A stretch of 45,246 nt of DNA from a virus: IMG/VR virus record IMGVR_UViG_3300009184_005663, positions 1 to 45,246 of that record. One strand, written 5' to 3'. Position numbers and translations under genes: made by a program. The notes below the pieces were generated by a model. That model had not been told where the DNA came from, ran no database searches, and saw nothing but the letters and a program-made list of their open reading frames with translations. Positions 6,498 through 40,370 of this stretch are shown here, piece after piece (position 1 is the stretch's first letter; every line of letters begins with the position of its first letter).

Positions 6498-7183
6498 TGA
6501 CAAAAATTTCAAACAAAAAGAAAATAACTTATAATTTTCAATCTCATTTAAATGAGATAAAATTAAGTGAAAGCCAGAAGATGCTATCAGATGCAATATT
6601 GCAAAATAATATAACATTTTGTACAGGCCCTGCAGGTACTTCTAAAACTTTTACTACACTATATACAGCATTGAGGCTTTTGAGTAAAGGTGAAATTAAA
6701 AAAATATTATTAACTAAGCCTATACAAGAATCAGGTGAAAAATTAGGTTATTTACCAGGTAATATTGATGAAAAAACAGCACCATATCTAGAAAGTTATG
6801 TATTAACTTTGCAAAAAATTATACCTGAAGAATTGGTAAAAAATCTCTTTGAATTTAAAATAATTGAATTTAGGCCTCTTGCGTTTATGAGGGGAGCCAG
6901 CTTTGACAATTGTTTGATGATTTTAGACGAAGCACAGAATACAATAGAGTCACAATTAATACTATATCTTACACGAATGGGAGAAGGCTCTAAGATTATA
7001 GTGACAGGTGATACAAATCAAATAGATATTAAACACCAAAATTCAGCTTTTGATTTATTCATTAAAATGATACATGATGTTGACGGTGTATATCATCATG
7101 AATTTAAACGTGCAGATATTGTTAGACATAAAATGCTTATTGAAATTACTGACAGATATGAAAAATGGAAAAATGATTTATGA
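6497..7183 (+). CDS. phoH: PhoH-like P-loop ATPase
   Basis: The 228-residue protein matches the PhoH family. Walker A is GPAGTSKT (44-51), with Ser in place of the usual Gly before the Lys. The family-specific KPIQESGEKLGYLPG follows (74-88), then Walker B LDEAQN (143-148) and TGDTNQID (170-177). PhoH proteins are widespread in phages, especially marine ones, and are thought to be ATP-dependent RNA helicases or nuclease-associated ATPases. The C-terminus lacks extra domains such as PIN or KH. The start shares a base with the helicase stop (TAATG). The stop overlaps the first glycosyltransferase gene by ATGA, so the sugar genes join the same transcription unit. Confidence 0.92.
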   Translation: MTKISNKKKITYNFQSHLNEIKLSESQKMLSDAILQNNITFCTGPAGTSKTFTTLYTALRLLSKGEIKKILLTKPIQESGEKLGYLPGNIDEKTAPYLESYVLTLQKIIPEELVKNLFEFKIIEFRPLAFMRGASFDNCLMILDEAQNTIESQLILYLTRMGEGSKIIVTGDTNQIDIKHQNSAFDLFIKMIHDVDGVYHHEFKRADIVRHKMLIEITDRYEKWKNDL

Positions 7184-7839
7184 AAATAGCGGTTGTTATT
7201 CCTACTAGAGGAGATAGACCAGAGTTTCTAAATCATTGTAAAAAAATGATTCATAGACAGACATATCCTCCAGATGAAATTATATTTGTAGACTACATAC
7301 CTGAAAAAAATAATCAAATAGATCTTACGAAACGATACCGTAGTGGTCTAAGCATGGCTATTAAAAAAAAATGTAACTATATAGTTTTTTGGGAAGACGA
7401 TGATTGGTATGATGAAAAATATATTGAATGGTCAATAAAGCAGTGGGAATATTGTGATAAGCCTGATGTATTTGGTATATCTTCTAGTTATTATTTTAAT
7501 ATAAAAATAATGAAAGGTGCCAAGTTTGATCATCCAGGGCGGTCTTCAATGTTTTGTACTAGTCTACACATAAAAGAAAATATTAATAAAGTTTGGACAT
7601 GGCCTCTAGATAGTGAAAGATTTTTAGATCTTTGGATTTGGAGAAAATGGAATACTCATAGTAAAAATACTGTAGATTTTACTGATAAAATATATACAAT
7701 TGGAATTAAACATGGGATAGGTTTAACAGGTGGAGGTGGACATGATACATCTTCTAATTTTTATACTGATACATACGATTCAGAATGGCTAAAAAGCCAC
7801 ATTGATGATTATTCATATAATTTTTATTGTTCATTATGA
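7180..7839 (+). CDS. GT-A (GT2-like) glycosyltransferase
   Basis: The 219-residue protein opens with a nucleotide-sugar binding strand (MKIAVVIPTRGDRPEF) and carries an acidic metal-binding motif EDDDW at 72-76, the DxD equivalent of GT-A enzymes. It is short, at single-domain length. The C-terminal part contains a glycine-rich HGIGLTGGGGHDTS segment whose His may complete the active site. The protein would transfer a sugar from a nucleotide donor in the cytoplasm; donor and acceptor are unknown. It is the first of eight consecutive glycosyltransferases. It overlaps PhoH by ATGA and the next gene by ATGA (7836-7839). Confidence 0.82.
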   Translation: MKIAVVIPTRGDRPEFLNHCKKMIHRQTYPPDEIIFVDYIPEKNNQIDLTKRYRSGLSMAIKKKCNYIVFWEDDDWYDEKYIEWSIKQWEYCDKPDVFGISSSYYFNIKIMKGAKFDHPGRSSMFCTSLHIKENINKVWTWPLDSERFLDLWIWRKWNTHSKNTVDFTDKIYTIGIKHGIGLTGGGGHDTSSNFYTDTYDSEWLKSHIDDYSYNFYCSL

Positions 7840-8516
7840 CGTTTGGGATAATTATTGCTACATATAAAAGACCTGATGGTAAAACTTTTTCATATTTAAG
7901 TAGAGCGCTTAGATCAATAAAAAGACAAACACATCAAGATTATTTAGTTTTATTAATAGGTGATAATTACGAAGATTACAGTGAGCTTTATAATATTAGT
8001 AAATATATTGATTCTGATAAATTATATTTAGAAAATTTACCAGTTGCAGTAGAAAGAGAAAAATATACAGGCTATTTATTATGGGCTTCAGGCGGTCTTA
8101 ATGCAATGAATCATGCAATAGATATTGGTTTATCTAAAGGCATTAAATATTTTTGTCATTTAGATCATGATGACTATTGGGCTCCTGACCATTTGTTTAA
8201 TTTTGAAAAATCTTTACAAGAAAAAGAATATCCATTTCTAGTTTCATATTCAACTTCTCCGGTATTTAAAAAAATTCTACCAGATTATAATAATACTAAT
8301 ATTTTACCAATTCCATTTGGAATGATACACTCATCTACATGTATGGATTTTCATTTCTTTCAAGAAAAATATAGAGATGTTTTTAAAGAAACAGGAACTG
8401 CAAGTCCGGCCGATGCTGATTTATGGGATAGATTAAATAAAATTATGGTTAAATTAAATTTAACAGGCAAACTAATTAAAAAAATAACTTGTTTTCATGA
8501 CATTGAAGGACATTAA
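7836..8516 (+). CDS. GT2 family glycosyltransferase
   Basis: I place the start at ATG 7836 (ATGA overlap with the previous stop) rather than the TTG at 7827, giving 226 residues. The N-terminal strand MTFGIIIATYKRPDG and LSRALRSIKRQTHQDYLVLL are classic GT2 features, and DHDD at 110-113 is the metal-binding motif. This is single-domain length with no membrane segment, so it is a soluble cytoplasmic transferase. It overlaps the fucosyltransferase gene by 20 bases. Donor and acceptor are unknown. Confidence 0.87.
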   Translation: MTFGIIIATYKRPDGKTFSYLSRALRSIKRQTHQDYLVLLIGDNYEDYSELYNISKYIDSDKLYLENLPVAVEREKYTGYLLWASGGLNAMNHAIDIGLSKGIKYFCHLDHDDYWAPDHLFNFEKSLQEKEYPFLVSYSTSPVFKKILPDYNNTNILPIPFGMIHSSTCMDFHFFQEKYRDVFKETGTASPADADLWDRLNKIMVKLNLTGKLIKKITCFHDIEGH

Positions 8517-9306
8517 TAATAAATCTTTTATTACTTTTAAGAAGTTAGGACTTTTTGGTAAATTAGGCAATCAGTTATTTCAAATAGCTGCTGCTGCTGC
8601 ATATGCAGAGGAACATAATATAGAATGCATTCTTCCGATATGGAAAAATATATGGACTGAAAATACTGACATGACCCATATTTTTAAAGGACCTTTTAAT
8701 ATAAATGCTAGTATTATTAACGCTAATGTTGAAAATTTTAAAGAATCTTCTATGGTATATTCTAAAATACCACAAAAAACAAAAATTAATATAGAAGGTT
8801 ATTTTCAAAGTGAAAAGTATTTTTTAAATAATTCAAATTACATTAGAAAAATATTTTCATTTAATGAAAAAATAAAAGAAGATGTAATTGTTAGAAATAT
8901 TGGTACTTTTGAAAAATCATGCGCAATACATGTTAGAAGAACTGATTATCTAAAATACCCAAATATACATCCATGTCTTGATATAGAGTATTATCGAAAA
9001 GCAATTCAATATATGAAAAGCTTTGGATATAATAAGTTTTTAATTTTTTCTGATGACCTAGATTGGTGTAAAAATAATTTCAATGGCAAAGAATATGCAT
9101 TTTCTGATAAAAATACAAAAAACTATGAGGATTTTATCCTTATGTCTTTATGTAGCTCTTACATTATAGCAAATTCTACTTTTTCGTGGTGGGTTGCATG
9201 GTTAAATGCTGACACTGAAAAGAAAATTGTTGCACCTAAAATATGGTTCGGACTAAATGGTCCACAAAAACATAATATTATCCCTGACAAATGGATGCAA
9301 CTATAA
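8497..9306 (+). CDS. Alpha-1,2-fucosyltransferase-like (GT11)
   Basis: The 269-residue protein shows the GT11 motif set. GKLGNQLFQ (21-29) is the N-terminal loop, GYFQSEKYF (101-109) is the middle motif, and HVRRTDY (145-151) is the GDP-fucose-binding HxRRxD motif. NSTFSWWVAWLN lies near residues 226-237. The length is close to that of bacterial alpha-1,2-fucosyltransferases. The enzyme would transfer L-fucose from GDP-fucose onto galactose or a similar residue. No GDP-fucose synthesis gene is visible, so the donor would come from the host. A second fucosyltransferase family (GT10) is encoded 3 kb downstream. Confidence 0.92.
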   Translation: MTLKDINNKSFITFKKLGLFGKLGNQLFQIAAAAAYAEEHNIECILPIWKNIWTENTDMTHIFKGPFNINASIINANVENFKESSMVYSKIPQKTKINIEGYFQSEKYFLNNSNYIRKIFSFNEKIKEDVIVRNIGTFEKSCAIHVRRTDYLKYPNIHPCLDIEYYRKAIQYMKSFGYNKFLIFSDDLDWCKNNFNGKEYAFSDKNTKNYEDFILMSLCSSYIIANSTFSWWVAWLNADTEKKIVAPKIWFGLNGPQKHNIIPDKWMQL

Positions 9307-9926
9307 AAATAAGCGTTGTCATGCCATCTTTTTTAGGAGAATATACTGTAGATTTTAATAAGTGTGCAACTAATAGAGAATTTAAACTAAAAAGAGCTAT
9401 AGATTCTTTTTTAATGCAGAGCTACAAAGAATCTGAATTAATTGTAATTAGTGATGGTTGTAATAAAACAGTAGATATAGTAAATGATGAATATACATCT
9501 TTTCTGATTACTAATAAAATAAAACTTGTCCAAATAGAAAAACAGCCGTTTTTCAGTGGCGTAGTTCGTTCAGAAGGTTTACAGAAATCGACAGGAGATC
9601 TTATATGTTATTTAGATTCTGATGATATATTAGGACCTTATCATTTAGAAGTAATAAGCTTATATTATGATAGATCAATGGATTGGATGTACTATGATGA
9701 TTTTTTATATGATGGAGAGAAAAAAATATTAAGAAATGTTTTACCTCAACATGGTAAAATTGGAACAAGTTCATTCTGTCATTTGTCAAAAACTAATGTT
9801 AAATGGCAAAATGGATATGGCCACGACTGGCTTACAATTAAAAAACTCTTAGGCCATAAATATGGAAAAATGAATACACCTGAATATTTAGTGTGTCACA
9901 TGTCAACAATAAATTTAGATTTTTAA
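9291..9926 (+). CDS. GT2 family glycosyltransferase
   Basis: The 211-residue protein has a GT2 fold signature: IKISVVMPSFLGEY at the N-terminus, LKRAIDSFLMQSYKESELIV, ISDGC, and the DxD-type LDSDD at 108-112. The short C-terminal part contains GHDW near residues 178-181, a plausible catalytic-base region. The start overlaps the GT11 gene by 16 bases, and its stop shares a base with the ATG of the next gene. Substrate is unknown. Confidence 0.87.
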   Translation: MDATIKISVVMPSFLGEYTVDFNKCATNREFKLKRAIDSFLMQSYKESELIVISDGCNKTVDIVNDEYTSFLITNKIKLVQIEKQPFFSGVVRSEGLQKSTGDLICYLDSDDILGPYHLEVISLYYDRSMDWMYYDDFLYDGEKKILRNVLPQHGKIGTSSFCHLSKTNVKWQNGYGHDWLTIKKLLGHKYGKMNTPEYLVCHMSTINLDF

Positions 9927-10576
9927 TGAATCAATTATTTAATAACTTCGATGCTATCTATGTAATTAATCTAGATTCAAGGCCTGATAGAATGAATGAC
10001 TTTAAAAAAGGTCTAATTTCCATAGGAATATCAGATTATGAAATAGATAAAAAAATTATTAGATTTTCTGGAATAGTTCCAGATAATGGACCTAGCGCAC
10101 TTGGTTGTACACTATCGCATCTCGAAATAGTAAAAAATGCAAAAGCGGCAGGCTACGAAAAAATCCTAGTTTTTGAAGATGATGCAATTCCATATTTAAA
10201 TGGAGTTAATCAAATAGATTTAGTAATAAAAGACATAAAAAACGAAGATTGGGACATTTATTATTTAGGATATAATTCACATCATCCTTTAGAACGTTAT
10301 TGTAAAAATTCACTAAAAGCAAAAGATTTATTTTCAACTCATGCAATTATATATAGATCTTCTTTTTTTGATAAATTTATCAATGATTATGAAAATGGTT
10401 TGATAGAAATATTTGACGTATGGCTTCGTTACAATGTACAAACTACTATGAAATGTTTGGCATCGTATCCAATGCTTTTTATTCAGAGCACTAGCTATTC
10501 AGATATAGAGAAAAAAAATGTAAATTATGATATTCAGATAGAAAGATATCAGAAATATACTTCGCATCTTTCCTAA
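9926..10576 (+). CDS. GT25 family (LPS-type) glycosyltransferase
   Basis: From ATG 9926 (TAATG overlap; a GTG at 9893 is possible but less likely) the protein has 216 residues. YVINLDSRPDR (12-22) and ALGCTLSHLEIV (58-69) followed by LVFEDDA (81-87) are the defining GT25 motifs, with EDD as metal ligand. GT25 includes LPS beta-1,4-galactosyltransferases and also the collagen-modifying galactosyltransferase domains of animals and giant viruses. The latter is notable because collagen-like fibres are encoded in this window. Which type this is cannot be told from sequence alone. Confidence 0.88.
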   Translation: MNQLFNNFDAIYVINLDSRPDRMNDFKKGLISIGISDYEIDKKIIRFSGIVPDNGPSALGCTLSHLEIVKNAKAAGYEKILVFEDDAIPYLNGVNQIDLVIKDIKNEDWDIYYLGYNSHHPLERYCKNSLKAKDLFSTHAIIYRSSFFDKFINDYENGLIEIFDVWLRYNVQTTMKCLASYPMLFIQSTSYSDIEKKNVNYDIQIERYQKYTSHLS

Positions 10577-10592
10577 AATTAACAGTTCTAAA

Positions 10593-11693
10593 ATGAAAAG
10601 TTCAGAAAACAAAAAAGAAGAAGATTCAGTGAGAAAAGCATCAATACCAGAAGATTTTAATTGGGAATGGTATTTAAAATTAAATCATGATTTAATAGAA
10701 GCTGGACTAAGTACTGAAAATCATGCAGTAACACATTGGTTAAGATGGGGTTTCTTCGAAGGAAGATCTTATGAAAAACCAAACCAGTACATGATTGATA
10801 GAATTGATACAGATAATCTAGACAATATTTTTGAGAAAAATGTAATAAATTACGATCATATTAAAACATCAGGAACTTTTATTCTTAATAATAAACAGAA
10901 TGCTTTTATTAATTTTATCATACCAGTAAGAGGCCGATCTAATTTTATTCAAAAAACAATAGAATCTGTAAAAAATGCAGTATATGAATTTGAAAAATCT
11001 TCTTTTTTTGGAGAAGTAAATATTACAGTATGTGAACATTCGGAGTCTCCTAAACATCAAGCTATATGTTTAAAATTAGATGTTGATTATATTTGGATAG
11101 AATCTAAAGAAAAATTCAATAAGTGTCTAGCTATGAATACTGCAGCTTTCTTTACACCTAAAACTAAATGGCTTCTATTTCATGACGTAGACTGCATTGT
11201 TAAATCAGATTTTTTTATTAACGTCTTTAAAAACATAGAAAGAAAAAAATGCGAAGCAATTCAAACATTTTCAGACAGAAGAGTACTATATCTAGATGAT
11301 AATAAAACAGATCAAGTTCTAAAAGGGCTTTTTGAAATTAATAATTTAGCGGAAGGCCCTGATGTCAAAGCAGGTACGCCTGGAGCTCCAGGTGGGTCTA
11401 TATGTATCACTAGATCGCTATTCTTTAAAATTGGCGGCTATGATCCTTATTATTTTGTTTCTTATGCACCTGAAGATATTTTCTTTTGGCGTAAAGCAGA
11501 AGTTTATGGAATTTTTGAAACATGTACATCTCCTAGAAATGAAATTTATCATTTAAATCATCTGAAAGTAAAGATAGATGGAGGAGAATTAATGGCAATG
11601 GAAATGTTAAAAATAAATTTTGAGAAACTTTCAATTGAAAAAAAGATAGAACTTCTTAATAAAATGAAAAATAATATCAGTAAATATGAATAA
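10593..11693 (+). CDS. Two-domain GT-A glycosyltransferase (GT7 C-terminal type) with N-terminal DWE-like module
   Basis: Of the 366 residues, ~20-60 form a small Trp-rich module (FNWEWYLKLNHDL, ending in WGFFEGR). That module is found attached to many glycosyltransferases of bacteria and large viruses. Residues ~105-340 form a GT-A domain with IIPVRGR (109-115), the metal motif DVD (198-200), and a galactosyltransferase-C-type region (267-298). That region includes GGYDPYYF and APEDIFFW, where ED is catalytic in GT7 relatives. It probably transfers a hexose or HexNAc. It is separated from the GT25 gene by 16 bases and overlaps the next gene by 8 bases. Confidence 0.85.
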   Translation: MKSSENKKEEDSVRKASIPEDFNWEWYLKLNHDLIEAGLSTENHAVTHWLRWGFFEGRSYEKPNQYMIDRIDTDNLDNIFEKNVINYDHIKTSGTFILNNKQNAFINFIIPVRGRSNFIQKTIESVKNAVYEFEKSSFFGEVNITVCEHSESPKHQAICLKLDVDYIWIESKEKFNKCLAMNTAAFFTPKTKWLLFHDVDCIVKSDFFINVFKNIERKKCEAIQTFSDRRVLYLDDNKTDQVLKGLFEINNLAEGPDVKAGTPGAPGGSICITRSLFFKIGGYDPYYFVSYAPEDIFFWRKAEVYGIFETCTSPRNEIYHLNHLKVKIDGGELMAMEMLKINFEKLSIEKKIELLNKMKNNISKYE

Positions 11694-12474
11694 TCTAAAA
11701 GAGTTTTCATCTTGGCATATAGGAGTTTCTAGTGAACATCCTGTAAATTTTTACGTAGATCATTCATGTTTAAAAGCAGGCGAAGGTTTAAATATTGCAT
11801 ATTTGATTGAACCTGAAGAAGTAATATCTAAGAATTTTTACAAAGAAGTAATAGAATTACAGGATAAATTTAAATATATTCTTACCGATAAGGAAGAAAT
11901 ACTGGATGCTTGTTCTAATGCAATTCTTTTTGAATATGGAACTACGTGGATGCCTACTAACCCGCATCTTGAAAAAACTTATGGTGTAAGTACGGTAATT
12001 GGTTTTAAACAGTTAGCTAAAGGACATCTAATAAGGCAAGAACTATGGAAGAGAAGATCAGAAATATTAATTCCTCAATTCTTTTATGCTAGCCAACATG
12101 GAGGACCTGCTCTTGAAGAAGACCATGAATTAAAATTAAATGATTACAACCGAGATCAACTATTTAAAACTCAATTTCATATTGTGATAGAGAATAAACA
12201 GACTAAATATTGGTTCACTGAAAAATTATGTGATTGTTTTAATTCTAGAGTAGTTCCTATCTATTATGGCGCAAAAGAAATAGGGAATTTTTTCGATACT
12301 TCAGGAATGCTGATTGCAAATAGTCTTGATGAAATTATTACAATTACAAATGAAATAACTGAATCTACCTATTCTCAACTAAAAGAAAGTATCTCTATTA
12401 ATGAAGAGAAAGTAAAGAAATATAATAAACTAGATAATAGACTTACTGAAAAAATAAAAGAACTTCTAAGATGA
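11686..12474 (+). CDS. Alpha-1,3/4-fucosyltransferase-like (GT10)
   Basis: The 262-residue protein contains the GT10 donor-binding signature: FHIVIEN (164-170), then YWFTEKLCDCF (175-185) and VVPIYYGA (189-196). These correspond to the GDP-fucose-binding region of alpha-1,3-fucosyltransferases. It is shorter than Helicobacter FucT (300-480 residues) and lacks heptad repeats, but the catalytic C-terminal half is complete. It lies in the same unit as a GT11 enzyme. It overlaps the upstream gene by 8 bases and the downstream gene by ATGA. Confidence 0.9.
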   Translation: MNNLKEFSSWHIGVSSEHPVNFYVDHSCLKAGEGLNIAYLIEPEEVISKNFYKEVIELQDKFKYILTDKEEILDACSNAILFEYGTTWMPTNPHLEKTYGVSTVIGFKQLAKGHLIRQELWKRRSEILIPQFFYASQHGGPALEEDHELKLNDYNRDQLFKTQFHIVIENKQTKYWFTEKLCDCFNSRVVPIYYGAKEIGNFFDTSGMLIANSLDEIITITNEITESTYSQLKESISINEEKVKKYNKLDNRLTEKIKELLR

Positions 12475-13226
12475 AAGCATGTGCAGTAATGTTACTACCT
12501 AATGATTTAGCATGGTCTCGATTAAACCAGAGTCTACCTCTGTTGAAACTAAATCTATTAGACAAATACCCTATTGACTACGTAATTTTTCATGAGGAGG
12601 GTTTCTCGGAAGATAATAAAAAGGAAATAAAAAATAGAATTAATGGTGTAATTTTTAAACAAATTAAATTTAATATTTCTAAATCTGCCAAAAATTTTAA
12701 ACCTCTCTGGAGTAATGATTGGAGTTTGGAAAAATGTACATCTTACGGTGGTATGTGTACATTTTTCACTAATGATATTTTTAAAATTTTAATAGAAATG
12801 GGCTATGATTATTATTTAAGACTTGATGATGATTCTTATCTATACGAAGATTTTGAAGAAAATCCTTTCGATAAAATGCATAGAGAAAATAAGTCTTATG
12901 GCTACTGTTTAAAAATTAAGGAAGCACCTCATGTAATACAGGGTCTCTTTTCTTTTATAAAAGAACATGTCAGTACTGATTATATTTTTGAAGATCCACA
13001 TTGGATCTATTATAATAATTTTGAAATAGTAGACCTCAAGAGATATTATAATGAACAAATAAAAGAAATATCTCAAAAGATTCATGAATCAGGAGGAATT
13101 TATTATTGGAGATGGGGTGATGCTCCTATTAGAACAATATTAGTTTCTATTTTTCTGCCAGGCGAAGTAATGAAATTTGACATTAATTACGAGCATCAAG
13201 GCATTAAAAATAAAAAATATAAATAA
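12471..13226 (+). CDS. GT15/KRE2-MNT1-like mannosyltransferase
   Basis: The 251-residue protein resembles the catalytic core of GT15 alpha-1,2-mannosyltransferases. It has an N-terminal strand (ACAVMLLPND), a conserved SYGGMCTFFTNDIF segment (91-104), and YDYYLRLDDDS (112-122) with the metal motif DDD. A late YYWRWGDAPIRT segment matches the family's W-GDAPxH/R region. GT15 is best known from fungi; related proteins occur in bacteria and large viruses. Family assignment is moderately certain, the GT-A fold more so. It is coupled upstream by ATGA. Confidence 0.75.
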   Translation: MKACAVMLLPNDLAWSRLNQSLPLLKLNLLDKYPIDYVIFHEEGFSEDNKKEIKNRINGVIFKQIKFNISKSAKNFKPLWSNDWSLEKCTSYGGMCTFFTNDIFKILIEMGYDYYLRLDDDSYLYEDFEENPFDKMHRENKSYGYCLKIKEAPHVIQGLFSFIKEHVSTDYIFEDPHWIYYNNFEIVDLKRYYNEQIKEISQKIHESGGIYYWRWGDAPIRTILVSIFLPGEVMKFDINYEHQGIKNKKYK

Positions 13227-13229
13227 AAA

Positions 13230-13913
13230 ATGGAAAAAGCAACAACAACAACATTTACTGATACTGTCAATGGCATAGATCTCATCATAATTGATGAAGT
13301 AAATTCAGGAACGCCTGCATGTGTTTTTAGAGAACTAAAAGAAAACTTTTACGGAATAGACAATTTGGACATTAAACAAGAAGATACTATACTTGATGTA
13401 GGTGCTAATACCGGAATTTTTTCTATTTATGCAAAAAAACTGTATGGGTGTAGGATAGTTGCATTTGAACCAGTCTCCGAGAATTTTGAAAATTTTAAAA
13501 AGAACATTATTTTAAATGGTTTTACTTTAGAAGATTTTGAAATTCACCAGGTTGCAATTACAAATAGAGATGGTGATATAATACAAATAGGAACTCCTAT
13601 TAATAATAGTGGAGGGTCTTCTGTATACTCGACAGTTCGGTTTCATCATGATATGGATAACATAACTTATACGTCAGAATGTGTCACTGAAAGTTTGAGA
13701 AAATATATTGACAATAGTTGTGTTTATTTAAAAATGGATTGTGAAGGTGGTGAATATGAAATCATACCAGATATTGTTGACAAGTTAAAGACTTTTAAAT
13801 GGATTGGTGCAGAGTTACATGTCTATACTCCTGATCATGATGCTACTGGACTTTTACGTATTATTAGAGAAAACTTCAATGGAGAACTCTATTCTGGAGT
13901 GATTAAACTATAG
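13230..13913 (+). CDS. FkbM family SAM-dependent methyltransferase
   Basis: The 227-residue protein has the FkbM Rossmann core. Motif I is DVGANTGIF (56-64), followed by the acidic AFEPVSENFENF loop and the late YLKMDCEGGEYEI motif. FkbM enzymes O-methylate hydroxyls of sugars and polyketides, and in surface-glycan clusters they cap or decorate saccharides. It closes the first glycosyltransferase block, three bases after the GT15-like gene, and is followed by a terminator. Two further FkbM domains are encoded in this window. Confidence 0.9.
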   Translation: MEKATTTTFTDTVNGIDLIIIDEVNSGTPACVFRELKENFYGIDNLDIKQEDTILDVGANTGIFSIYAKKLYGCRIVAFEPVSENFENFKKNIILNGFTLEDFEIHQVAITNRDGDIIQIGTPINNSGGSSVYSTVRFHHDMDNITYTSECVTESLRKYIDNSCVYLKMDCEGGEYEIIPDIVDKLKTFKWIGAELHVYTPDHDATGLLRIIRENFNGELYSGVIKL

Positions 13914-13959
13914 AAGAACTGCTGAGGAAATTTTAAAATTTAAAATAAGATTAAGATTT

Positions 13960-13992
13960 AAAGCTAAGGTGTAAACATTTTAGCTTTTTTTT
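13960..13992 (+). terminator. Rho-independent terminator
   Basis: AAAGCTAA (13960-13967) pairs with TTAGCTTT (13980-13987). Extra pairing inside (GTGT with ACAT, one wobble) extends the stem, and an eight-base T tract follows. It ends the first glycosylation block and precedes the Clp ATPase gene. Confidence 0.8.
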
Positions 13993-14020
13993 CTATAATA
14001 AAAAACAAAATAAAAAGATA

Positions 14021-16066: not shown

Positions 16067-16077
16067 AATTAAAAAAA

Positions 16078-16281
16078 ATGAAAAAAGTATTAACATTTTT
16101 AGGTTTATTTATTTTTTCTTCAGCTGTAACTCAAACTCTCATTAGAGTTAATTGGCCTATAACTTTTATAAATTTATTATCACTGTTATTGGACAATATA
16201 ATTTTATTCTTTTTTACTTTTTTAATTTCAGCTCCTGTTACTCTTATAATTTTAAAAAAAATAAAATTTAAAGACAACTAA
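16078..16281 (+). CDS. Small two-helix membrane protein (67 aa)
   Basis: The 67-residue protein has two predicted transmembrane helices (about 4-22 and 34-58) with short polar ends and a Lys-rich C-terminus. It begins 11 bases after the Clp gene and shares one base with the next start (TAATG). No family is recognised. The coupling to a second small membrane protein resembles lysis or envelope-protein pairs (holin or spanin type), but no lysin or lipobox is present, so this is only a possibility. Confidence 0.6.
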   Translation: MKKVLTFLGLFIFSSAVTQTLIRVNWPITFINLLSLLLDNIILFFFTFLISAPVTLIILKKIKFKDN

Positions 16282-16568: not shown

Positions 16569-16604
16569 AAACAAAACTTTTTTAATTTTCTTCATTCAAA
16601 TTAT

Positions 16605-18506: not shown

Positions 18507-18511
18507 TAGTT

Positions 18512-26318: not shown

Positions 26319-26328
26319 AATAATAGAA

Positions 26329-30315: not shown

Positions 30316-30344
30316 AAATTAAACATAATAAATTAAATTAAACA

Positions 30345-30587: not shown

Positions 30588-30597
30588 AAAAATAAAA

Positions 30598-31281: not shown

Positions 31282-31285
31282 TTTT

Positions 31286-32059: not shown

Positions 32060-32070
32060 AAATAAATTAT

Positions 32071-32652: not shown

Positions 32653-32657
32653 AATTT

Positions 32658-33254
32658 ATGGAATTTTCAATACACGAAGAAAATTGGTTTTCAACTCCAG
32701 TATGGGAATCAGAGGTGACAAATGTAAATAATCAAGAAATAAAAGATTACTGCTTGTGGTTAAGAGATAATACAAAAGGCACTACTATATCAAATAGAGG
32801 AGGCTGGCACAGTAGTGAGATCATACAACCAATACCTGTTGATTTAACAAAACTATTTAATAATCTTGAAATATTTGTTAATCAAAATTGTTATAAGCAT
32901 ACAGGTATCGATAATTTAAAGTTTGGGAATTTTTGGGTTAATATTAATGAACCTGGTTCTTATAATTTACTACACGACCACCAAAACAGTATATTGTCTG
33001 GTGTATATTATGTATCAGTTCCATTTGACAATATGGGTGATTTGGTTTTACATAGAGGAGACACTGCACCATATTTTTTAAAATCAGACGTGGAGAGAAT
33101 TAGTACAAAAACAAATTCTTTTGTAGCTGTAAAAAAACCTTTAGAGTCTTTCTTTTATATATTTCCATCATGGGTTAAACATCATGTTGAATCTAATGAT
33201 TCACAAGGCGAAAGAATATCAATAGCATTTAATTTTGTTCCTAATAATAAATAG
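32658..33254 (+). CDS. TIGR02466-type 2OG-Fe(II) oxygenase-like protein
   Basis: The 198-residue protein has the order of features of the TIGR02466 family: W-x-N (FWVNINEPGSYN), LLHDHQNSILSGVYYV with the metal-site H-x-H, and FYIFPSWVKHHVESN carrying the distal His. RISIAFNF closes the barrel. These are putative 2OG-dependent oxygenases common in marine phages, with no known substrate. It is 5 bases downstream of a P4H-like gene and has a paralog immediately downstream. Confidence 0.82.
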   Translation: MEFSIHEENWFSTPVWESEVTNVNNQEIKDYCLWLRDNTKGTTISNRGGWHSSEIIQPIPVDLTKLFNNLEIFVNQNCYKHTGIDNLKFGNFWVNINEPGSYNLLHDHQNSILSGVYYVSVPFDNMGDLVLHRGDTAPYFLKSDVERISTKTNSFVAVKKPLESFFYIFPSWVKHHVESNDSQGERISIAFNFVPNNK

Positions 33255-33255
33255 T

Positions 33256-33894
33256 ATGAACCCACAAGTATTTTCACTGTTTCCAACACCTTTATATGTT
33301 GCAAATTACGATAAAGATTTAAAAAATGTAATTAATTATTTTGATAGTTGTGAGATGTTAGATACAAATAGTGGCTATGGAATGATTTCAAGTAATAGTT
33401 ATATTTTAGATAATCCTGTATGCAACGAATTAAATAAATTCTTAATGTCTTGTTTTGAAGATTTTGCAACAAATATTATGAGATACAGATTTAAAGAATT
33501 AGCATTTGCTCAATCTTGGTTAACTTATAAAAATCCAAACCAAATTCATAAGGCGCATACACATCCTAATACTTTATTAGCAGGAGTATTTTATTATGAT
33601 GCACATGAAGATGATGCAGCGATATGTTTTTCAAAAGAAGTAAAATCATTTAATAGGTCATATTTTGAGCCATCATTACATGATGATTATCAAAATCACG
33701 TCTTTTCACAAGAAGAAATTTACTACATGCCTAAGAAAAATGATTTTATTATTTTTCCATCATGGTTAACACATGGAGTGCCACCTAATAAAACAAATAG
33801 GACAAGAAAGGCGCTTGGGGTCAATGCTTTAACAAAAGGGACATTAGGTGATAAGGAAACAATTTCTGAAATAATTTTTGGTAGATACGTATGA
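33256..33894 (+). CDS. TIGR02466-type 2OG-Fe(II) oxygenase-like protein, paralog
   Basis: ATG 33256, one base after the upstream stop, is the best start (212 residues). The protein shows the same pattern: QSWLTYKNPNQIHKAHTHPN (first His pair), TLLAGVFYYDA, and FIIFPSWLTHGVPPN (distal His), followed by RKALGVNAL. It is a divergent tandem paralog of the preceding gene. The last bases overlap the sulfotransferase start by ATGA. Substrate is unknown; a virion or glycan target is plausible by position. Confidence 0.82.
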   Translation: MNPQVFSLFPTPLYVANYDKDLKNVINYFDSCEMLDTNSGYGMISSNSYILDNPVCNELNKFLMSCFEDFATNIMRYRFKELAFAQSWLTYKNPNQIHKAHTHPNTLLAGVFYYDAHEDDAAICFSKEVKSFNRSYFEPSLHDDYQNHVFSQEEIYYMPKKNDFIIFPSWLTHGVPPNKTNRTRKALGVNALTKGTLGDKETISEIIFGRYV

Positions 33895-34709
33895 AACAGA
33901 AAATATTTTTTAATTCAACACTACCTAGAAGCGGTAGCACATTACTTCAAAATTTGCTGGGACAAAACCCAGATTTCTATGTTACACCAACATCAGGTCT
34001 TATAGATTTGATGTTAGGCACACGAATAGGATATAATCAAAATTATGAATCAAAAGCTGGCGATGTTGAATTGTGGAAAGAAGGCTTTTATAAGTTTTGT
34101 TCACATGGAATAGAAGGTTATGTACGGTCACAAACAACAAAACCATATTATCTAGATAAAAATAGAGTTTGGGGATTTTACTATAATTTATTAGCACATA
34201 TTGTAGAAAAACCAAAAGTATTATATATGGTTAGGGATTTACCATCAATCTTTGCTTCAATGGAGAAGAAATTTAGGATGAATCCAGATAAAGATGATGG
34301 AACTATGGATAACATAAAAATGAAAGGAACAACAACTCATAAAAGAGTTGAATTATGGGCACAAACGCACCCTTTAGGTTATTCACTTGAAAAATTATAT
34401 CAGACATTATTAGATGGCACAGCTTCTAACTTTCTATTTATTAGATATGAAGATTTATGTATCAATCCTAATCATGTAATGAAAAGTATATATCAATATT
34501 TAGAGTTAGATGAATTTAAACACAATTTTCAACATATAAACCAAATAACAACTGAGAATGATGCAATACATGGAATATATGGAGATCATGTGATAAGACC
34601 ATCTTTACAAATGCTACCGAATGATTCAAAAGAAATATTAGGAATGCATACAATAGATTTAATTAAAGAGAATTATAAATGGTATTATGATTTCTTTGGG
34701 TATAAATAA
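33891..34709 (+). CDS. PAPS-dependent sulfotransferase
   Basis: The 272-residue protein has the 5'-phosphosulfate loop LPRSGSTLLQNLLG (11-24) and the 3'-phosphate motif YMVRDLPSIFASM (112-124), with Arg115 and Ser119 as ligands. It ends with an acceptor/dimer-like LFIRYEDLCINP segment, which is typical for sulfotransferases. PAPS would come from the host. It would sulfate a sugar hydroxyl or a protein. The gene sits at the junction between the tailoring genes and the first propeller gene, only 9 bases from it, so co-expression with the fibres is likely. Confidence 0.9.
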   Translation: MKQKIFFNSTLPRSGSTLLQNLLGQNPDFYVTPTSGLIDLMLGTRIGYNQNYESKAGDVELWKEGFYKFCSHGIEGYVRSQTTKPYYLDKNRVWGFYYNLLAHIVEKPKVLYMVRDLPSIFASMEKKFRMNPDKDDGTMDNIKMKGTTTHKRVELWAQTHPLGYSLEKLYQTLLDGTASNFLFIRYEDLCINPNHVMKSIYQYLELDEFKHNFQHINQITTENDAIHGIYGDHVIRPSLQMLPNDSKEILGMHTIDLIKENYKWYYDFFGYK

Positions 34710-34718
34710 AGATGAAAT

Positions 34719-35693
34719 ATGTCAAAATTACAAAGCACAGAAATAGTAGGTGTTGAAAATAGGCCAGCAACAATATGTTCAAATACGATGTGCATTTGGT
34801 TTGACACGACTAATTTAAGAACAGTCATTTCCTATTGTGGGTATGGCGGAGCATCAGTATGGTCAGCAGGTGGTGCCATAATAACAGGAAGACGTGAATT
34901 AGCAGGTCTTGGGACTCAAAATGCAGCATTTGCGGCTGGTGGTAATACAATAGCAGGAAGAACAGGAGTATCAGAAGAATATAATGGTGCAAGTTGGGCA
35001 ACAGGCGGTACATTAGCAACCGCAAGATATAGATTAGCAGGCGGCGGTTCACAGAATGAAGCATTTGTCGCTGCCGGTCGAACAACAAGTCCTGTTAATT
35101 TTACTGAAGAATATAACGGTGCAAGTTGGTCAGCTGGAGGTGCAATGATAAATTTTTGTAAAGTAAATTTAGCAGCGTCCGGAACCCAAAATGCTGGATT
35201 AGCAATGGGCGGTCAAGATGATCTTGGTAATTTTTGTTCAGCGACCACCGATGAATATGATGGGGCAAATTGGTCATCTGGAGGTACAATGAGTTCAGGT
35301 AGACAAACGCTAGCAGGAACAGGAACGCAGAATGAAACATTAGCAATGGGTGGTTTTATAGCTGCAGTTGCGTCATGTACAGAAGAATATAATGGAACAT
35401 CTTGGTCAACAGGCGGTGTAATGACAACAGCAAGACGTCAATTAGCAGGCGGCGGTACACAAAATGCAGCTTTTGTTACTGGCGGGTGTACTACTGCTGT
35501 TACTACAGCAACAGAAGAATACAATGGGGCCAGCTGGTCATCTGGCAATGTTCTATCCTGTGCTAGAGGGTGCTTAGGTAGTGCTGGCGACATAACAAAT
35601 GGATTAGCATTTGCAGGTGGAAATAATTCATATATAAGATGTACTGAAGAGTATAGCGCAGCACTGGCGATAATAGATAAGATAATATTATAA
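34719..35693 (+). CDS. Kelch-like beta-propeller fibre protein 1
   Basis: The 324-residue protein has a ~42-residue N-terminal module (MSKLQSTEIVGVENRPATIC, then CIWFDTTNL and ISYCG) followed by six ~44-residue blades. The blade pattern is W-S-x-GG-x-(M/L)-x-x-(A/G)R, LAG-x-GTQN, and (T)EEYNG-(T/A)S. Such repeats have the kelch hallmarks of a GG pair, YNG and W, so a six-bladed propeller is predicted. The tail ends LAIIDKIIL, shared with paralogs. Propellers on phage fibres may bind glycan receptors. This copy is the most diverged in the array (third blade altered, last blade lacks GTQN). Confidence 0.85.
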   Translation: MSKLQSTEIVGVENRPATICSNTMCIWFDTTNLRTVISYCGYGGASVWSAGGAIITGRRELAGLGTQNAAFAAGGNTIAGRTGVSEEYNGASWATGGTLATARYRLAGGGSQNEAFVAAGRTTSPVNFTEEYNGASWSAGGAMINFCKVNLAASGTQNAGLAMGGQDDLGNFCSATTDEYDGANWSSGGTMSSGRQTLAGTGTQNETLAMGGFIAAVASCTEEYNGTSWSTGGVMTTARRQLAGGGTQNAAFVTGGCTTAVTTATEEYNGASWSSGNVLSCARGCLGSAGDITNGLAFAGGNNSYIRCTEEYSAALAIIDKIIL

Positions 35694-35708
35694 AATAAGA
35701 TAAAGTAA

Positions 35709-35830
35709 ATGGCTAAATTACAAAGTACAGAAATAGTAGGAGTTGCAAATAGGCCAGCAACAATATGTTCAAATAGTGTTTGTATGTGGTTTGATACAAC
35801 TAATACTAAAATGGTTTTTTCGTATTGTGG
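35709..35830 (+). repeat. 122-bp direct repeat, copy 1 (shared with 36663-36784)
   Basis: The first 122 bases of this propeller gene, coding the N-terminal module up to SYCG, are base-for-base identical to the start of the next gene. The blade parts then diverge abruptly. Confidence 0.95.
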
Positions 35831-36647
35831 TTTAAGTGGTGCTGGTATATGGTCAGCAGGTGGTGCTTTAAGTATTGCTAGAGAATGTTTAGCTGGTGCA
35901 GGAACACAAAATGAATCATTTGTAGCAGGCGGCTTTTTTATTACAAATATATCAAATACTGAAGAATACAATGGTGCATCGTGGTCTGCTGGTGGTGCAT
36001 TACTAAATGCAAGACATGGTGCAGGTGCAGCAGGCACTCAGAATGCAGGACTTACTATGGGAGGGCCTTCTCTATCATGTACTGAGGAATATGATGGCGC
36101 TACTTGGACTGCTGGCGGAGTTATGATAACAGCAAGAAGAGGTCTTGCAAGCGCAGGCACACAAAATGAAGCATTTGCAGTAGGCGGTATAGGCGGAACT
36201 GGATGCACCGAGGAATATAATGGTGTAAGTTGGTCAGCCAGTAATGCATTAGGTACTGCAAGGGCTTGGTTAGCTGGAGCTGGAACTCAGAATGTAGGTC
36301 TTGTGATGGGCGGCTTTGTTGCAAGTAGTCTAGCGTGCACTGAAGAATATAATGGTACAAGCTGGTCAGCCAGTAATGCATTAGGCACTGCAAGGTATTC
36401 GTTAGCTGGAGCAGGCACACAAAACTTAGGTCTTGCTACAGGAGGTCGTTTAAATACATCATTATCATGTACTGAAGAGTATAATGGTACATCATGGTCA
36501 GAAGGTGGATCATTAATAACTGCACGAATGGGATTAGCAGGCTCAGGATCACAGTTTTCTAGTCTTGTAGCTGGTGGGTTTTCAAATACAACTGTAACAT
36601 GCACTGAAGAATACATTAAATTAGCTAATGTAGATATTAGTATTTAA
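35709..36647 (+). CDS. Kelch-like beta-propeller fibre protein 2
   Basis: This 312-residue paralog has the same N-terminal module (KLQSTEIVGVANRPATIC) and six blades. Blades 4 and 5 share the odd WSASNALGTAR start instead of WSAGG, pointing to internal duplication. The last blade has GSGSQFSSL where others have GxGTQN. The C-terminal tail is LANVDISI. Its first 122 bases are identical to the first 122 of the next gene, so the two have exchanged sequence recently. Confidence 0.85.
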   Translation: MAKLQSTEIVGVANRPATICSNSVCMWFDTTNTKMVFSYCGLSGAGIWSAGGALSIARECLAGAGTQNESFVAGGFFITNISNTEEYNGASWSAGGALLNARHGAGAAGTQNAGLTMGGPSLSCTEEYDGATWTAGGVMITARRGLASAGTQNEAFAVGGIGGTGCTEEYNGVSWSASNALGTARAWLAGAGTQNVGLVMGGFVASSLACTEEYNGTSWSASNALGTARYSLAGAGTQNLGLATGGRLNTSLSCTEEYNGTSWSEGGSLITARMGLAGSGSQFSSLVAGGFSNTTVTCTEEYIKLANVDISI

Positions 36648-36662
36648 TTAAAAATATAACTT

Positions 36663-36784
36663 ATGGCTAAATTACAAAGTACAGAAATAGTAGGAGTTGC
36701 AAATAGGCCAGCAACAATATGTTCAAATAGTGTTTGTATGTGGTTTGATACAACTAATACTAAAATGGTTTTTTCGTATTGTGG
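36663..36784 (+). repeat. 122-bp direct repeat, copy 2
   Basis: This is identical to 35709-35830 and codes the N-terminal module of the third propeller protein. Confidence 0.95.
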
Positions 36785-37622
36785 GTATGGTGGAGCAGGC
36801 ACTTGGTCAGCAGGGGGTGCAATGATAACCGCAATGTATGCTTTAGCAGGGGTAGGTACACAAAATGAAGGACTTGTTGCAGGAGGTGCATTAGTAAATA
36901 CAGCTGTATCATGTACAGAAGAATACAATGGTACATCATGGTCAGCAGGAGGGGCATTAGCAACAGGAAGATATCAATTAGCAGGAGCGGGTTCACAGAA
37001 TGAAGGACTTGTAGCAGGAGGGGGTAGCGGTGGAGTTTGTTCGTGCACAGAAGAATATAATGGCACATCTTGGGCAGCAGGGGGTGCAATGATAACAGCA
37101 AGAAGATTATTAGAAGGAGCAGGAACTCAGAATGAGGCATTTGTAGCAGGAGGTTTTACAAGTGTAAATTTATCTTGCACTGAAGAATATAATGGAACAT
37201 CATGGTCAGCAGGAGGTGGACTAATAACTACAAGAAGAAATTTAGCAGGAGCAGGTACACAGAACGTAGGACTTGTAATGGGAGGTTTAACAAATGTACA
37301 AGTATCATGCACAGAAGAATATAATGGCACATCTTGGGCAGCAGGGGGTGCAATGATAACAGCAAGATATACTTTAGCAGGAGCAGGAACGCAAAATGAA
37401 GCCTTTGTTGCAGGAGGTTATACAGATGTAATTGTAACTTGTACAGAAGAATATAATGGCACATCTTGGGCAGCAGGGGGTGCATTATCAGTTGGAAGAT
37501 ACCAATTAGCAGGAGCAGGGTCACAGGCCGCAGGACTTGTAGCAGGAGGTTATAATGTTGCAAATTTATCTTGTACCGAAGAATACACTAAACCATTAGC
37601 AATAATAGACTGTATTAAATAG
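36663..37622 (+). CDS. Kelch-like beta-propeller fibre protein 3
   Basis: The 319-residue paralog has the N-terminal module and six regular blades (WSAGGAMITA.., [22 protein letters not shown]). It is the most regular copy. Within it, 60-base segments at 37044-37103 and 37308-37367 are identical, showing very recent blade duplication or conversion. The last blade has GAGSQAAGL and ends SCTEEYTKPLAIIDCIK. It is predicted to form a six-bladed propeller on a short anchoring module. Confidence 0.87.
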   Translation: MAKLQSTEIVGVANRPATICSNSVCMWFDTTNTKMVFSYCGYGGAGTWSAGGAMITAMYALAGVGTQNEGLVAGGALVNTAVSCTEEYNGTSWSAGGALATGRYQLAGAGSQNEGLVAGGGSGGVCSCTEEYNGTSWAAGGAMITARRLLEGAGTQNEAFVAGGFTSVNLSCTEEYNGTSWSAGGGLITTRRNLAGAGTQNVGLVMGGLTNVQVSCTEEYNGTSWAAGGAMITARYTLAGAGTQNEAFVAGGYTDVIVTCTEEYNGTSWAAGGALSVGRYQLAGAGSQAAGLVAGGYNVANLSCTEEYTKPLAIIDCIK

Positions 37623-37632
37623 AATATAAAAC

Positions 37633-38592
37633 ATGGCAAAATTACAGAGTAGTGAAGTTGTTGGAGTTGCAAATAGACCAGCAACAATATGTTCAAATAC
37701 GATGTGCATTTGGTTTGATACAACTAATTTAAAAACGGTTATTTCCTATTGTGGGTATGACGGAGCAGGAGTTTGGTCAACAGGAAGTGCAATGATTTCA
37801 GTAAATATAGGATTAGCAGGCGCAGGAACTCAGAATGAAGGTCTTGCTATGGGTTCTAATATTAATCTTAATACAGAAGAATATAATGGCACCTCTTGGT
37901 CAGCTGGTGGTAATATGATAACAACAAGAGTAAGTGCGGCAGGAGCAGGAACACAGAATGCAGGACTTTTAATTAGTGGTGGTAATACTAATGCTACTGA
38001 AGAATATGATGGTACTACTTGGGCAACTGGTGGTAATGTAATAATTAGAAAAGGATATTCAGCAGGAGCAGGAACACAAAATGAAGCTCTTGCAGCTGCA
38101 GGATCTGTAGACTTTATTAGTAATACTAATACTTGTACAGAAGAATACGATGGGACATCATGGTCAACAGGATGTACAATGATAACAGCAAGAGCTTATT
38201 TAAGAGGTGTTGGAACGCAGAATGTAGGACTTGCAGCAGGTGGATACAATTCTGCTGGGGCCTGCGCATGTACAGAAGAATATAATGGCACCTCTTGGTC
38301 AGCTGGTGGTAATATGATAACAGTAAGAAGTCAATTAGGAGGTGCAGGATCGCAAAATTCTGGGTTAGTATTTGGAGGCAAAAATAGTTCAAATTTTAAT
38401 TCGGCTATTACTGAAGAATACAATGGGACATCATGGTCAACTGCTAATACATTAATAACAGCAAGAAGATTAATAGGTGGTACAGGTACACAAGGATTAG
38501 GATTAGCATTTGGTGGGTGTGTAAGTGCTTCAGTTTCCTGCACTGAAGAATACACTAAAGCGTTAGCAATAATAGATCGTATTTTATCATAA
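37633..38592 (+). CDS. Kelch-like beta-propeller fibre protein 4
   Basis: The 319-residue paralog has six blades. Its N-terminal module (KLQSSEVVGVANRPATICSN, CIWFDTTNLKTVISYCG) is closest at DNA level to the first gene of the array (ICSNTMCIWFDTTNL coded alike), not to its immediate neighbour. Blades 1-3 lack the usual Cys before EEYNG. Tail LAIIDRILS is conserved with paralogs 1 and 3. It starts 11 bases after the upstream stop. Confidence 0.85.
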   Translation: MAKLQSSEVVGVANRPATICSNTMCIWFDTTNLKTVISYCGYDGAGVWSTGSAMISVNIGLAGAGTQNEGLAMGSNINLNTEEYNGTSWSAGGNMITTRVSAAGAGTQNAGLLISGGNTNATEEYDGTTWATGGNVIIRKGYSAGAGTQNEALAAAGSVDFISNTNTCTEEYDGTSWSTGCTMITARAYLRGVGTQNVGLAAGGYNSAGACACTEEYNGTSWSAGGNMITVRSQLGGAGSQNSGLVFGGKNSSNFNSAITEEYNGTSWSTANTLITARRLIGGTGTQGLGLAFGGCVSASVSCTEEYTKALAIIDRILS

Positions 38593-38629
38593 ATCAATTT
38601 ATAGATATTTGAATATATAATAAAATAAC

Positions 38630-39466
38630 ATGGCTAAATTACAGAGTAGTGAAATAGTAGGTGTTGCAAATAGACCTGCAACGATATGTGTAAATACTGT
38701 TTGTTTATGGTTTGATACAACTAACCTAAAACCAATGGCATCTTATTGTAGTAGGAGTGGAGCAGGTACTTGGTCAGCAGGGGGTGCATTGATAACGGCA
38801 AGATATGGTATTGGTGTTATGGGGACACAAAATGAGGCATTAGCCGCAGGTGGGTATCAAAATACAGTTGTTGGAGTTAGTTGTACAGAAGAATATAATG
38901 GAACATCATGGGCTGTAGGGGGTGCACTTATAAATGCAAGATTATACCTTCCTGGGGCAGGTACACAAAATGAAGGACTTGTAGCAGGAGGTTTTACAAA
39001 TGTAAGCTTAGCTTGTACAGAAGAATACAATGGCACATCATGGTCAACAGGGGGTGCGTTAGCAACGGCAAGACATGCTTTAGCAGGAGCAGGTACACAA
39101 AATGCAGGACTTGTAGCAGGAGGTGCTGGCCCTTTATCATGCACGGAAGAATATAATGGTACATCTTGGTCAGCAGGAGGTGCATTAATAAATAGCAGAT
39201 ATGTAGTATCAGGAGCAGGTACACAAAATGAAGCATTTGTAGCAGGAGGCGTTACAACTGTATCTGTATCATCATGCACAGAAGAGTATAATGGAACATC
39301 GTGGTCATCAGGTGGAGCAATGATAACTGCAAGAGGATATTTATCAGGTGCAGGGTCACGAGGTGCTGGACTTGTTGTAGGTGGATATACTAATGGAAAT
39401 CCTGGTCTTGCTTGTACAGAAGAATACCTAAAATCATCATACACAATAGTAGATTGTATCTTATAA
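38630..39466 (+). CDS. Kelch-like beta-propeller fibre protein 5 (five blades)
   Basis: The 278-residue paralog has the N-terminal module ([20 protein letters not shown]) and only five blades, about 44 residues fewer than its neighbours. The last blade retains the terminal form (GAGSRGAGL) and the tail YTIVDCIL, so an internal blade has been lost rather than the end. A five-bladed propeller or an altered oligomer would result. The spacing to the upstream gene (37 bases) is larger than between the others, and an AT-rich leader precedes the ATG. Confidence 0.85.
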   Translation: MAKLQSSEIVGVANRPATICVNTVCLWFDTTNLKPMASYCSRSGAGTWSAGGALITARYGIGVMGTQNEALAAGGYQNTVVGVSCTEEYNGTSWAVGGALINARLYLPGAGTQNEGLVAGGFTNVSLACTEEYNGTSWSTGGALATARHALAGAGTQNAGLVAGGAGPLSCTEEYNGTSWSAGGALINSRYVVSGAGTQNEAFVAGGVTTVSVSSCTEEYNGTSWSSGGAMITARGYLSGAGSRGAGLVVGGYTNGNPGLACTEEYLKSSYTIVDCIL

Positions 39467-39494
39467 TTTACGTATAACAAAAAATAGTTTTAAT

Positions 39495-40370
39495 ATGAAT
39501 AAATACATTGTTTGGCACATCCAAGGTGGATTAGGAAAGAATGTTGCAGCAACAGGATTACCAAAAACAATAAAAGAAGTGTATAGTGACAGACAACTTA
39601 TAATGGTTGTATCCTATCCCGAAGTTTTCCTAAACAATCCCTATGTTGATAGAGTGTATCCGTTAGGTAATTGCCCCTACTTTTACGAGGATTTTATAGA
39701 GAATAAAGACGCTCTCGTTTTTAGACATGAGCCATATCATCAAACAGGTCATATACATAAGAATAAGCATTTGGTAAGCAACTGGTGCGACCTATTAAGT
39801 ATTCCTTATGAGAACCAGACTCCTCAGCTTTATCCTAACTATGCAGAAAAAGTAAATGCTAAAAAATGGTTTAGGGATAAGCCTGTCATCGTATTACAAA
39901 CATCTGGTGGTGAATTAGAATCAAAGACTACTTATTCATGGTGTAGGGACATGCCACAAGATATTGCGCAATTAGTTGTGGACAAATATAAAGATTCTCA
40001 TCATATATTTCATATATCACGAAGAGGAGGTTATATTTTAAATGGAGTAGAAAGAGTTGATATGAAATTATCTAATATGGAATTATTTAGCATGTTGACT
40101 GTATCATCTAAGAGATTTTTAATTGATTCATCTTTACAACATGCAGCAGTTGCTATTAATTTACCATCTACTGTATTTTGGATTGGAACATCTCCTCAAG
40201 TTTTTGGTTATGGTATTCATACAAATATCGTGGCAAATAAGATTAATAATAAGAATCATTTAATTGGTTCTTATCTGTTTGATTTTCAGTTTGACTATAA
40301 TGTACACGAGTGTCCATATAATAGTTTGGAAGAAATGTTTGATCTGGAAAAAATTATTAATATGTTATGA
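39495..40370 (+). CDS. GT9-like glycosyltransferase (heptosyltransferase fold)
   Basis: The 291-residue protein has a GT-B-like organisation seen in GT9. The N-terminus YIVWHIQGGLGKNVAATGL (4-22) resembles the G-x-G-(D/K) donor-domain loop, the middle has VIVLQTSGGE (131-140), and the C-terminal signature is FLIDSSLQHAAVAINLPSTV, then FWIGTSP. GT9 members typically move heptose from ADP-heptose. The gene lies between the propeller array and the S74 fibre, an unusual place for a transferase unless it acts on fibre proteins or host glycans. The first half of the gene is visibly richer in C and G than the second, suggesting a mosaic origin. Confidence 0.75.
   Translation: MNKYIVWHIQGGLGKNVAATGLPKTIKEVYSDRQLIMVVSYPEVFLNNPYVDRVYPLGNCPYFYEDFIENKDALVFRHEPYHQTGHIHKNKHLVSNWCDLLSIPYENQTPQLYPNYAEKVNAKKWFRDKPVIVLQTSGGELESKTTYSWCRDMPQDIAQLVVDKYKDSHHIFHISRRGGYILNGVERVDMKLSNMELFSMLTVSSKRFLIDSSLQHAAVAINLPSTVFWIGTSPQVFGYGIHTNIVANKINNKNHLIGSYLFDFQFDYNVHECPYNSLEEMFDLEKIINML

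Follow-up and report, generated by a model that had tools for sequence, protein, structure and literature searches.

A phage island with glycosyltransferases and collagen-like fibres encodes a TibC-type enzyme

Introduction

What does a phage decorate with a long row of glycosyltransferases (GTs)? We studied this question for the IMG/VR virus record IMGVR_UViG_3300009184_005663, a virus fragment of 45,246 bases (the window, i.e., the whole stretch that was analysed). Its glycan genes span positions 7180-40370, all on the plus strand and many with overlapping starts and stops, and lie beside fibre genes, as the original prediction, made from the letters of the window, had correctly located them. 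Phage GTs are usually ascribed to DNA or host-surface modification. The original prediction left virion fibres and host surface open as targets; the fibre link is supported by our analysis, and the evidence favours the virion. We consider it somewhat probable that the phage modifies its own virion proteins with sugars by means of soluble enzymes. The virion is favoured because of the homology of the central enzyme, encoded at 19563-21881, to TibC, the recurrence of its genes beside G-[ST]-S fibres or tail sheath, and the lack of predicted membrane segments in the glycan genes.

Results

The central enzyme

The gene at 19563-21881 (plus strand, as all window features below) encodes a fusion of two GTs. 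Its N-terminal half is GT4 and scores above the Pfam cut-off; the Pfam GT9 match on the other half stays below. For the C-terminal half, the NCBIfam profile TIGR04414 yields E=3e-49 (167.9 bits, under the curated cut-off of 200) and the PDB sequence of TibC E=1e-27, and TibC provides the top 21 Foldseek PDB matches of the predicted fold. Judged by profile, sequence and predicted fold, this half is of TibC type. TibC is a bacterial autotransporter protein O-heptosyltransferase (BAHT; PMC4358343), i.e., of a family that forms dodecameric rings and places heptose on Ser of an autotransporter; for the phage enzyme, the acceptor would be a virion protein. The TibC-like enzyme proposed earlier is thus confirmed, though as one half of a GT4-TibC fusion that had gone unremarked.

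We took the key TibC residue positions from PMC4358343 and aligned the window protein with 56 distinct phage proteins, one of which ends before the TibC domain, such that 56 sequences were compared. No variation was seen, among the 55 phage proteins and the window, at the Asp aligned to D110, at K230, at W305 or at any of the four iron-finger cysteines. In the window protein, D510, T612, K616 and W690 correspond to TibC D110 (presumably), T226, K230 and W305, and C723, C726, C743 and C755 to C339, C342, C358 and C370. The enzyme resembles BAHT (TibC, AAH; TIGR04414) in its catalytic domain, iron-finger cysteines, and catalytic Asp and Lys. A counterpart of the N-terminal beta-barrel of BAHT may precede the catalytic domain; the TIGR04414 match starts only at position 72, and the model places seven strands at 347-423 with mixed confidence. 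In contrast to BAHT, the phage enzyme is fused to GT4 and found beside fibre or tail genes rather than an autotransporter, and the window protein lacks R286.

The enzyme recurs in numerous phages of very large size. When 2.9 million viral contigs were scanned, 160 candidate stretches with a relative emerged, of which 80 were kept for analysis; among these 80 listed relatives, most are full length. When 40 records were searched with TIGR04414, 39 matched and 36 exceeded the curated cut-off; these records, nearly all chosen as relatives, were hand-picked for size and variety, as were the fetched contigs. Among 84,980 bacterial and archaeal species genomes only two matches were found, both on phage-like contigs in metagenome-assembled genomes (MAGs) of Flavobacteriales, where GT4 and TibC are separate open reading frames (ORFs). 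The two contigs (L097, L098) are labelled Winogradskyella or Flavobacteriales and are apparently phage; L097 has tail sheath and tube homologues.

The cassette and its fibres

A homologue of the GT4-FkbM fusion encoded at 16605-18506 (PF00534 and PF05050) is found in 72/80 GT4-TibC loci, and the domain of the protein encoded at 18512-19582 in 48/80, mostly in adjoining genes. The latter protein has no Pfam match. Its AlphaFold model (pLDDT 81) shows weak Foldseek matches to GT-A enzymes (galactofuranosyl- and xylosyltransferases) and a C-terminal beta-sandwich resembling the Wzt carbohydrate-binding domain, both with low TM-scores; by fold, it is probably a GT-A glycosyltransferase.

Fibre and tail genes are frequent neighbours of this cassette. 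Tail sheath follows directly or within a few genes in several lineages; terminase and portal come later in the order. Of ten contigs, four have a GXY fibre no more than 3 kb from the cassette, where 0.71 are expected from random gene positions (P=0.003). Many loci are closely related, and the unit counted in our association tests is the record rather than the independent evolutionary event. The phage LR756501 (735 kb) has a collagen-like fibre 99 bp from the cassette; in the cultured Microcystis phage Mel-JY01, 1.7 kb lie between them.

Two relatives deserve a remark. In Mel-JY01 (PP395634; locus L454), a plus-strand ORF of 805 codons with 129 GXY triplets extends over 635-3052, whereas the ORF annotated there is on the minus strand (739-2298). 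A structural protein is encoded at 3065-4591, and the GT4-TibC protein of this phage (4750-8430) is labelled FkbM methyltransferase. In locus L030, a gene for a 1304-aa tail sheath protein (12225-16139) stands immediately after GT4-TibC; the sheath match covers the last 350 residues.

The fibres that often abut the cassette are collagen-like, with triplets mostly of the form G-[ST]-S. Counted per record within GXY runs, 84-100% of the triplets bear Ser/Thr in 8 of the 11 records with such fibres; the others show 65% (G002), 59% (window, both fibres together) and 47% (G008, 19 triplets only). The window's two candidate acceptors are a collagen-like fibre at 40645-42057 (PHROGs tail fibre; 78 GXY triplets) and a collagen-like and kelch fibre at 43122-45246, open at the contig end (74 GXY triplets). 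By its translation, the C-terminal part of a further collagen-like GTS/GSS fibre covers 2-802, likewise open at the contig end. This collagen-like, Ser/Thr-bearing character of the fibre repeats was not mentioned in the original prediction.

We also started from the fibre. Among contigs selected solely because their DNA encodes [10 protein letters not shown], 21/50 have a TibC domain that exceeds the cut-off, as do 8/9 of those at least 100 kb long. Of 40 random contigs, each 20 kb or longer, none does (0/40; Fisher test against 21/50, 4e-7). These controls were picked by a random 14-mer; the statistic includes its 40 records of that minimum length and excludes four PhoH relatives. PhoH, tried as a matched control, gave five loci; a backwards-codon pattern, which yielded 14 mostly short contigs, was dropped for the random 14-mer. 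Eleven named large phages were compared: three have TibC, among them LR756501, the sole one with the strict repeat, and the other eight have neither.

Proposed mechanism

We propose that the phage's own virion proteins are glycosylated in the cytoplasm during assembly. Central to this would be the conserved cassette of GT4-FkbM (16605), usually the GT-A-like protein (18512), and GT4-TibC (19563). Within the G-[ST]-S arrays of the fibres, Ser/Thr would receive their first sugar (heptose or a related one) from the TibC domain; for this first step our proposal is a tentative one. GT4 domains and accessory GTs may then lengthen the glycan, FkbM enzymes may O-methylate it, and oxygenases and the sulfotransferase may modify glycan or fibre. 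We infer which sugar is donated, which residue accepts it and in which order the transfers occur. It is also conceivable, if doubtful, that numerous phages of the largest size class, the 735 kb one among them, possess in GT4-BAHT a dedicated system for protein O-glycosylation; their giant collagen-like fibres, (G-[ST]-S)n, would then carry a coat of long, methylated glycans and form mucin-like bristles on the virion.

Several observations weigh against this picture. The adenine-contacting R286 of TibC is Ile in the window and Met in G002, and only 29/56 aligned sequences have Arg at this position. The HldA-like kinase is found in four records (G001, G002, G007, G018), all without R286, which renders both the donor and the heptose supply uncertain. 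The GXY fibre closest to 19563 in the window lies about 19 kb away. The random control contigs were unmatched for phage lineage, and Mel-JY01, LR756504, G005 and G007 have TibC without a strict-repeat match, given a pattern that misses AGY serines and mixed arrays. The scan patterns start from GT4-end motifs, could not detect stand-alone bacterial TibC and are therefore uninformative on it. Finally, similar clusters of GTs and fibres in pelagimyophages are interpreted in PMC7029224 as modification of the lipopolysaccharide (LPS) O-chain.

Following that interpretation, the GTs would remodel LPS or capsule of the host during infection, e.g., to block superinfection, which we consider unlikely for the window. 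The KdsB-like and HldA-like genes, which belong to LPS sugar pathways, speak for it, as do the pelagimyophage clusters themselves, whose genomes carry rfaE (PMC7029224). However, a simple hydropathy scan predicts no membrane segment for the glycan genes, and they have no Pfam match to a flippase, polymerase, ligase or priming transferase either, in keeping with virion proteins being glycosylated directly in the cytoplasm. Furthermore, the central enzyme falls into a protein O-heptosyltransferase family with its iron finger kept, and in many lineages the cassette has fibres or tail sheath as neighbours.

The KdsB-like CMP-sugar synthetase is encoded at 21878-22564 (PF02348, E=3e-30; NF003952, 188 bits, cut-off 193) and the HldA-like PfkB kinase at 24316-25095 (PF00294, E=3e-16; TIGR02198, E=1e-32 at 113 bits, cut-off 345). 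In G002, an HldE C-terminal-type adenylyltransferase, also below its cut-off, adjoins HldA. A supply of ADP-heptose to TibC by HldA is not asserted here, given that all four records with the kinase lack R286.

Accessory glycosyltransferases

The original prediction counted 16 GTs. Profiles support 13 of them: 11 score at or above the Pfam cut-off (genes starting at 7180, 7827, 8497, 9291, 9893, 10593, 12471, 16605, 19563, 27339 and 28103) and two slightly below (11686, GT10; 22561, GT2). The gene at 18512 adds a GT-A-like fold, and the remaining two (26329, 39495) are poorly supported.

The first block starts with GT2-like enzymes at 7180-7839 (PF00535, 23.4 bits, cut-off 23.3) and 7827-8516 (PF00535, E=1.8e-7), followed by a GT11 protein of the fucosyltransferase family at 8497-9306 (PF01531, E=3e-28; phrog_2644 glycosyltransferase, E=2e-58). 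A GT2 enzyme at 9291-9926 (PF00535, E=1.6e-11) has a 41% identical homologue in LR756501. Next are a GT25-like enzyme at 9893-10576 (PF01755, E=2e-7), a GT2/GT7-like one at 10593-11693 (PF00535, E=4e-6; PF05679, E=0.004, below cut-off) and a GT10-like member of the fucosyltransferase family at 11686-12474 (PF00852, E=2e-4, 21.5 bits, cut-off 23.9). The gene at 12471-13226 encodes GT15, the family of yeast KRE2/KTR-type mannosyltransferases (PF01793, E=4e-24; Kre2p 1s4n, E=3e-15), and had no match among 50,697 phage records when used as an INPHARED query. An FkbM methyltransferase at 13230-13913 (PF05050, E=8e-12) ends the block. Downstream of the cassette, a GT2-like enzyme at 22561-23247 (PF00535, E=8e-4, below cut-off) has a counterpart of 71% identity in the syntenic G002. 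The putative GT at 26329-27342 lacks any Pfam or PDB match and has paralogues in G002. It is followed by a GT34-like enzyme at 27339-28109 (PF05637, E=4e-6) and a GT2 enzyme within a two-part protein at 28103-29839 (PF00535, E=4e-20).

Do all these genes serve the virion? An assembly line of all 24 genes, as originally proposed, is too strong a claim, since relatives repeat only part of the set. The genes of 7180-13226 have no homologue in the 80 GT4-TibC loci, and KdsB and HldA are found in one locus each. This partial recurrence would suit a mosaic in which the cassette acts on the virion while the block 7180-13913 and KdsB/HldA serve the host surface or other chemistry. We regard such a division, which overlaps with virion glycosylation and differs from it only in the role of the accessory genes, as rather unlikely: homologues of GT11, GT25 and GT10 are present elsewhere in several cassette-bearing records, and G031 groups GT9, oxygenases and a kelch fibre with the cassette, all adjoining it. 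The cassette of L027 contains RmlD and UDP-galactopyranose mutase genes.

Tailoring enzymes

The KdsB-like, HldA-like (PfkB) and sulfotransferase genes, the three FkbM domains and the three 2OG-Fe(II) oxygenases named in the original prediction all score above their Pfam cut-offs. The third FkbM domain, a methyltransferase, is encoded at 31286-32059 (PF05050, E=2e-16). The oxygenases lie at 32071-32652 (prolyl-hydroxylase-like; PF13640, E=3e-11; prolyl 4-hydroxylase (P4H) structures weakly, E=0.012), 32658-33254 (PF13759, E=2e-23; TIGR02466 above cut-off) and 33235-33894 (PF13759, E=3e-18; a 69% homologue adjoins the cassette in G031), and the sulfotransferase at 33891-34709 (PF13469, E=4e-17). 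The earlier attributes 'fucosylated' and 'sulfated' are guesses at the level of enzyme families, and we saw no gene for a fucose nucleotide in the window.

Phage GTs elsewhere decorate modified DNA bases, and the three oxygenases could provide hydroxymethylated bases for the GTs of the window. We judge such DNA hypermodification highly improbable, since the oxygenases belong to PF13640 and PF13759, lack any Pfam match of TET/JBP type and adjoin fibres, and no base-hydroxymethylase gene was noticed. Another conceivable chemistry is hydroxylation of collagen Pro/Lys followed by glycosylation as in animals or mimivirus, given that collagen-like fibres, a P4H-like oxygenase and GT25 share the region. 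This, too, is very improbable: the Y position of the window's GXY triplets holds neither Pro nor Lys, and we rejected the animal-style scheme for this reason.

Phage identity and host

Fibre 40645 matches tail-fibre families of PHROGs and, with its C-terminus, baseplate and long-tail-fibre families. Relatives have genes for tail sheath and tube as well as for terminase and portal. Both findings identify the region as belonging to a phage, as originally proposed, rather than to a host genomic island. An IMG/VR contig (G001) is about 100% identical across nearly the whole window, which speaks against a chimeric assembly. We read the region as a fibre-and-decoration island from a large tailed freshwater phage.

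The host is most likely a member of Bacteroidota, based on the relatives of the window's helicase (closest to an uncultured huge phage and phages of Prevotella, Chryseobacterium, Sphingomonas and Tenacibaculum) and on the two bacterial MAGs with cassette contigs, both Flavobacteriales; the cassette is also present in the Microcystis phage. LR756500 shares helicase and KdsB with the window and has no TibC. The contigs are fragments, and coordinates within relatives stem from a simple ORF caller.

Relation to known systems

Islands of this type are already known. The host recognition cluster of pelagimyophages is a variable island of T4-like aquatic phages with tail fibres and many GTs, set within a T4-like structural region; the passages seen of PMC7029224 do not mention TibC or glycine-serine-threonine fibres. 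The window has fibres and GTs together, with structural genes adjacent only in relatives. Moraphages (PMC12619734) are large aquatic phages of mostly Bacteroidota hosts with four core GT groups, and virion glycosylation is mentioned for them; in contrast, the paper's main text has no word starting with 'heptos' or 'collagen', and the window was not assigned to a moraphage lineage. Chloroviruses such as PBCV-1 also encode their own GTs for atypical virion glycans of a large DNA virus, but, according to PMC5408694 and PMC7826918, with a eukaryotic host and N-glycans on the major capsid protein. Mycobacteriophages share virion-protein glycans, located on capsid and tail tube, i.e., on different target proteins (Freeman 2023, as related in PMC12619734).

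Within the literature examined, the link to BAHT and the link to fibres appear new. We know of no BAHT reported in the glycosylated-virion mycobacteriophages. A literature search gave papers in which phages and a TibC-type enzyme are both named, but, judged by title and abstract, no paper on a phage TibC, and the word 'glycosyltransferase' is absent from the examined part of the paper on the 735 kb phage. With a protein glycosyltransferase family and a candidate acceptor at hand, virion glycosylation in large phages becomes directly testable, and the cultured Mel-JY01 carries both. If true, sugar-coated fibres bear on adsorption, virion stability, grazing and the evolution of receptor binding.

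Further genes of the window

Five tandem kelch-like repeat fibre proteins, recognised from ORFs and repeats, are encoded at 34719-39466; the first matches phrog_27227 (unknown function). This tandem array is likely a fibre-diversification array. Another kelch-like fibre protein, likewise seen from ORF and repeats, lies at 42059-43045, with a 53% homologue near the cassette in G031. The GT9-like protein at 39495-40370 is of uncertain function; like 26329 it has no PDB relative, and its match to the heptosyltransferase profile NF008204 is weak (E=0.043). Its GGLGK motif is invariant across five homologues, and a 57% homologue adjoins the cassette in G031. Within the glycan cluster, a ClpA/B-type ATPase gene is found at 14021-16066, for which two cassette-bearing contigs have homologues.

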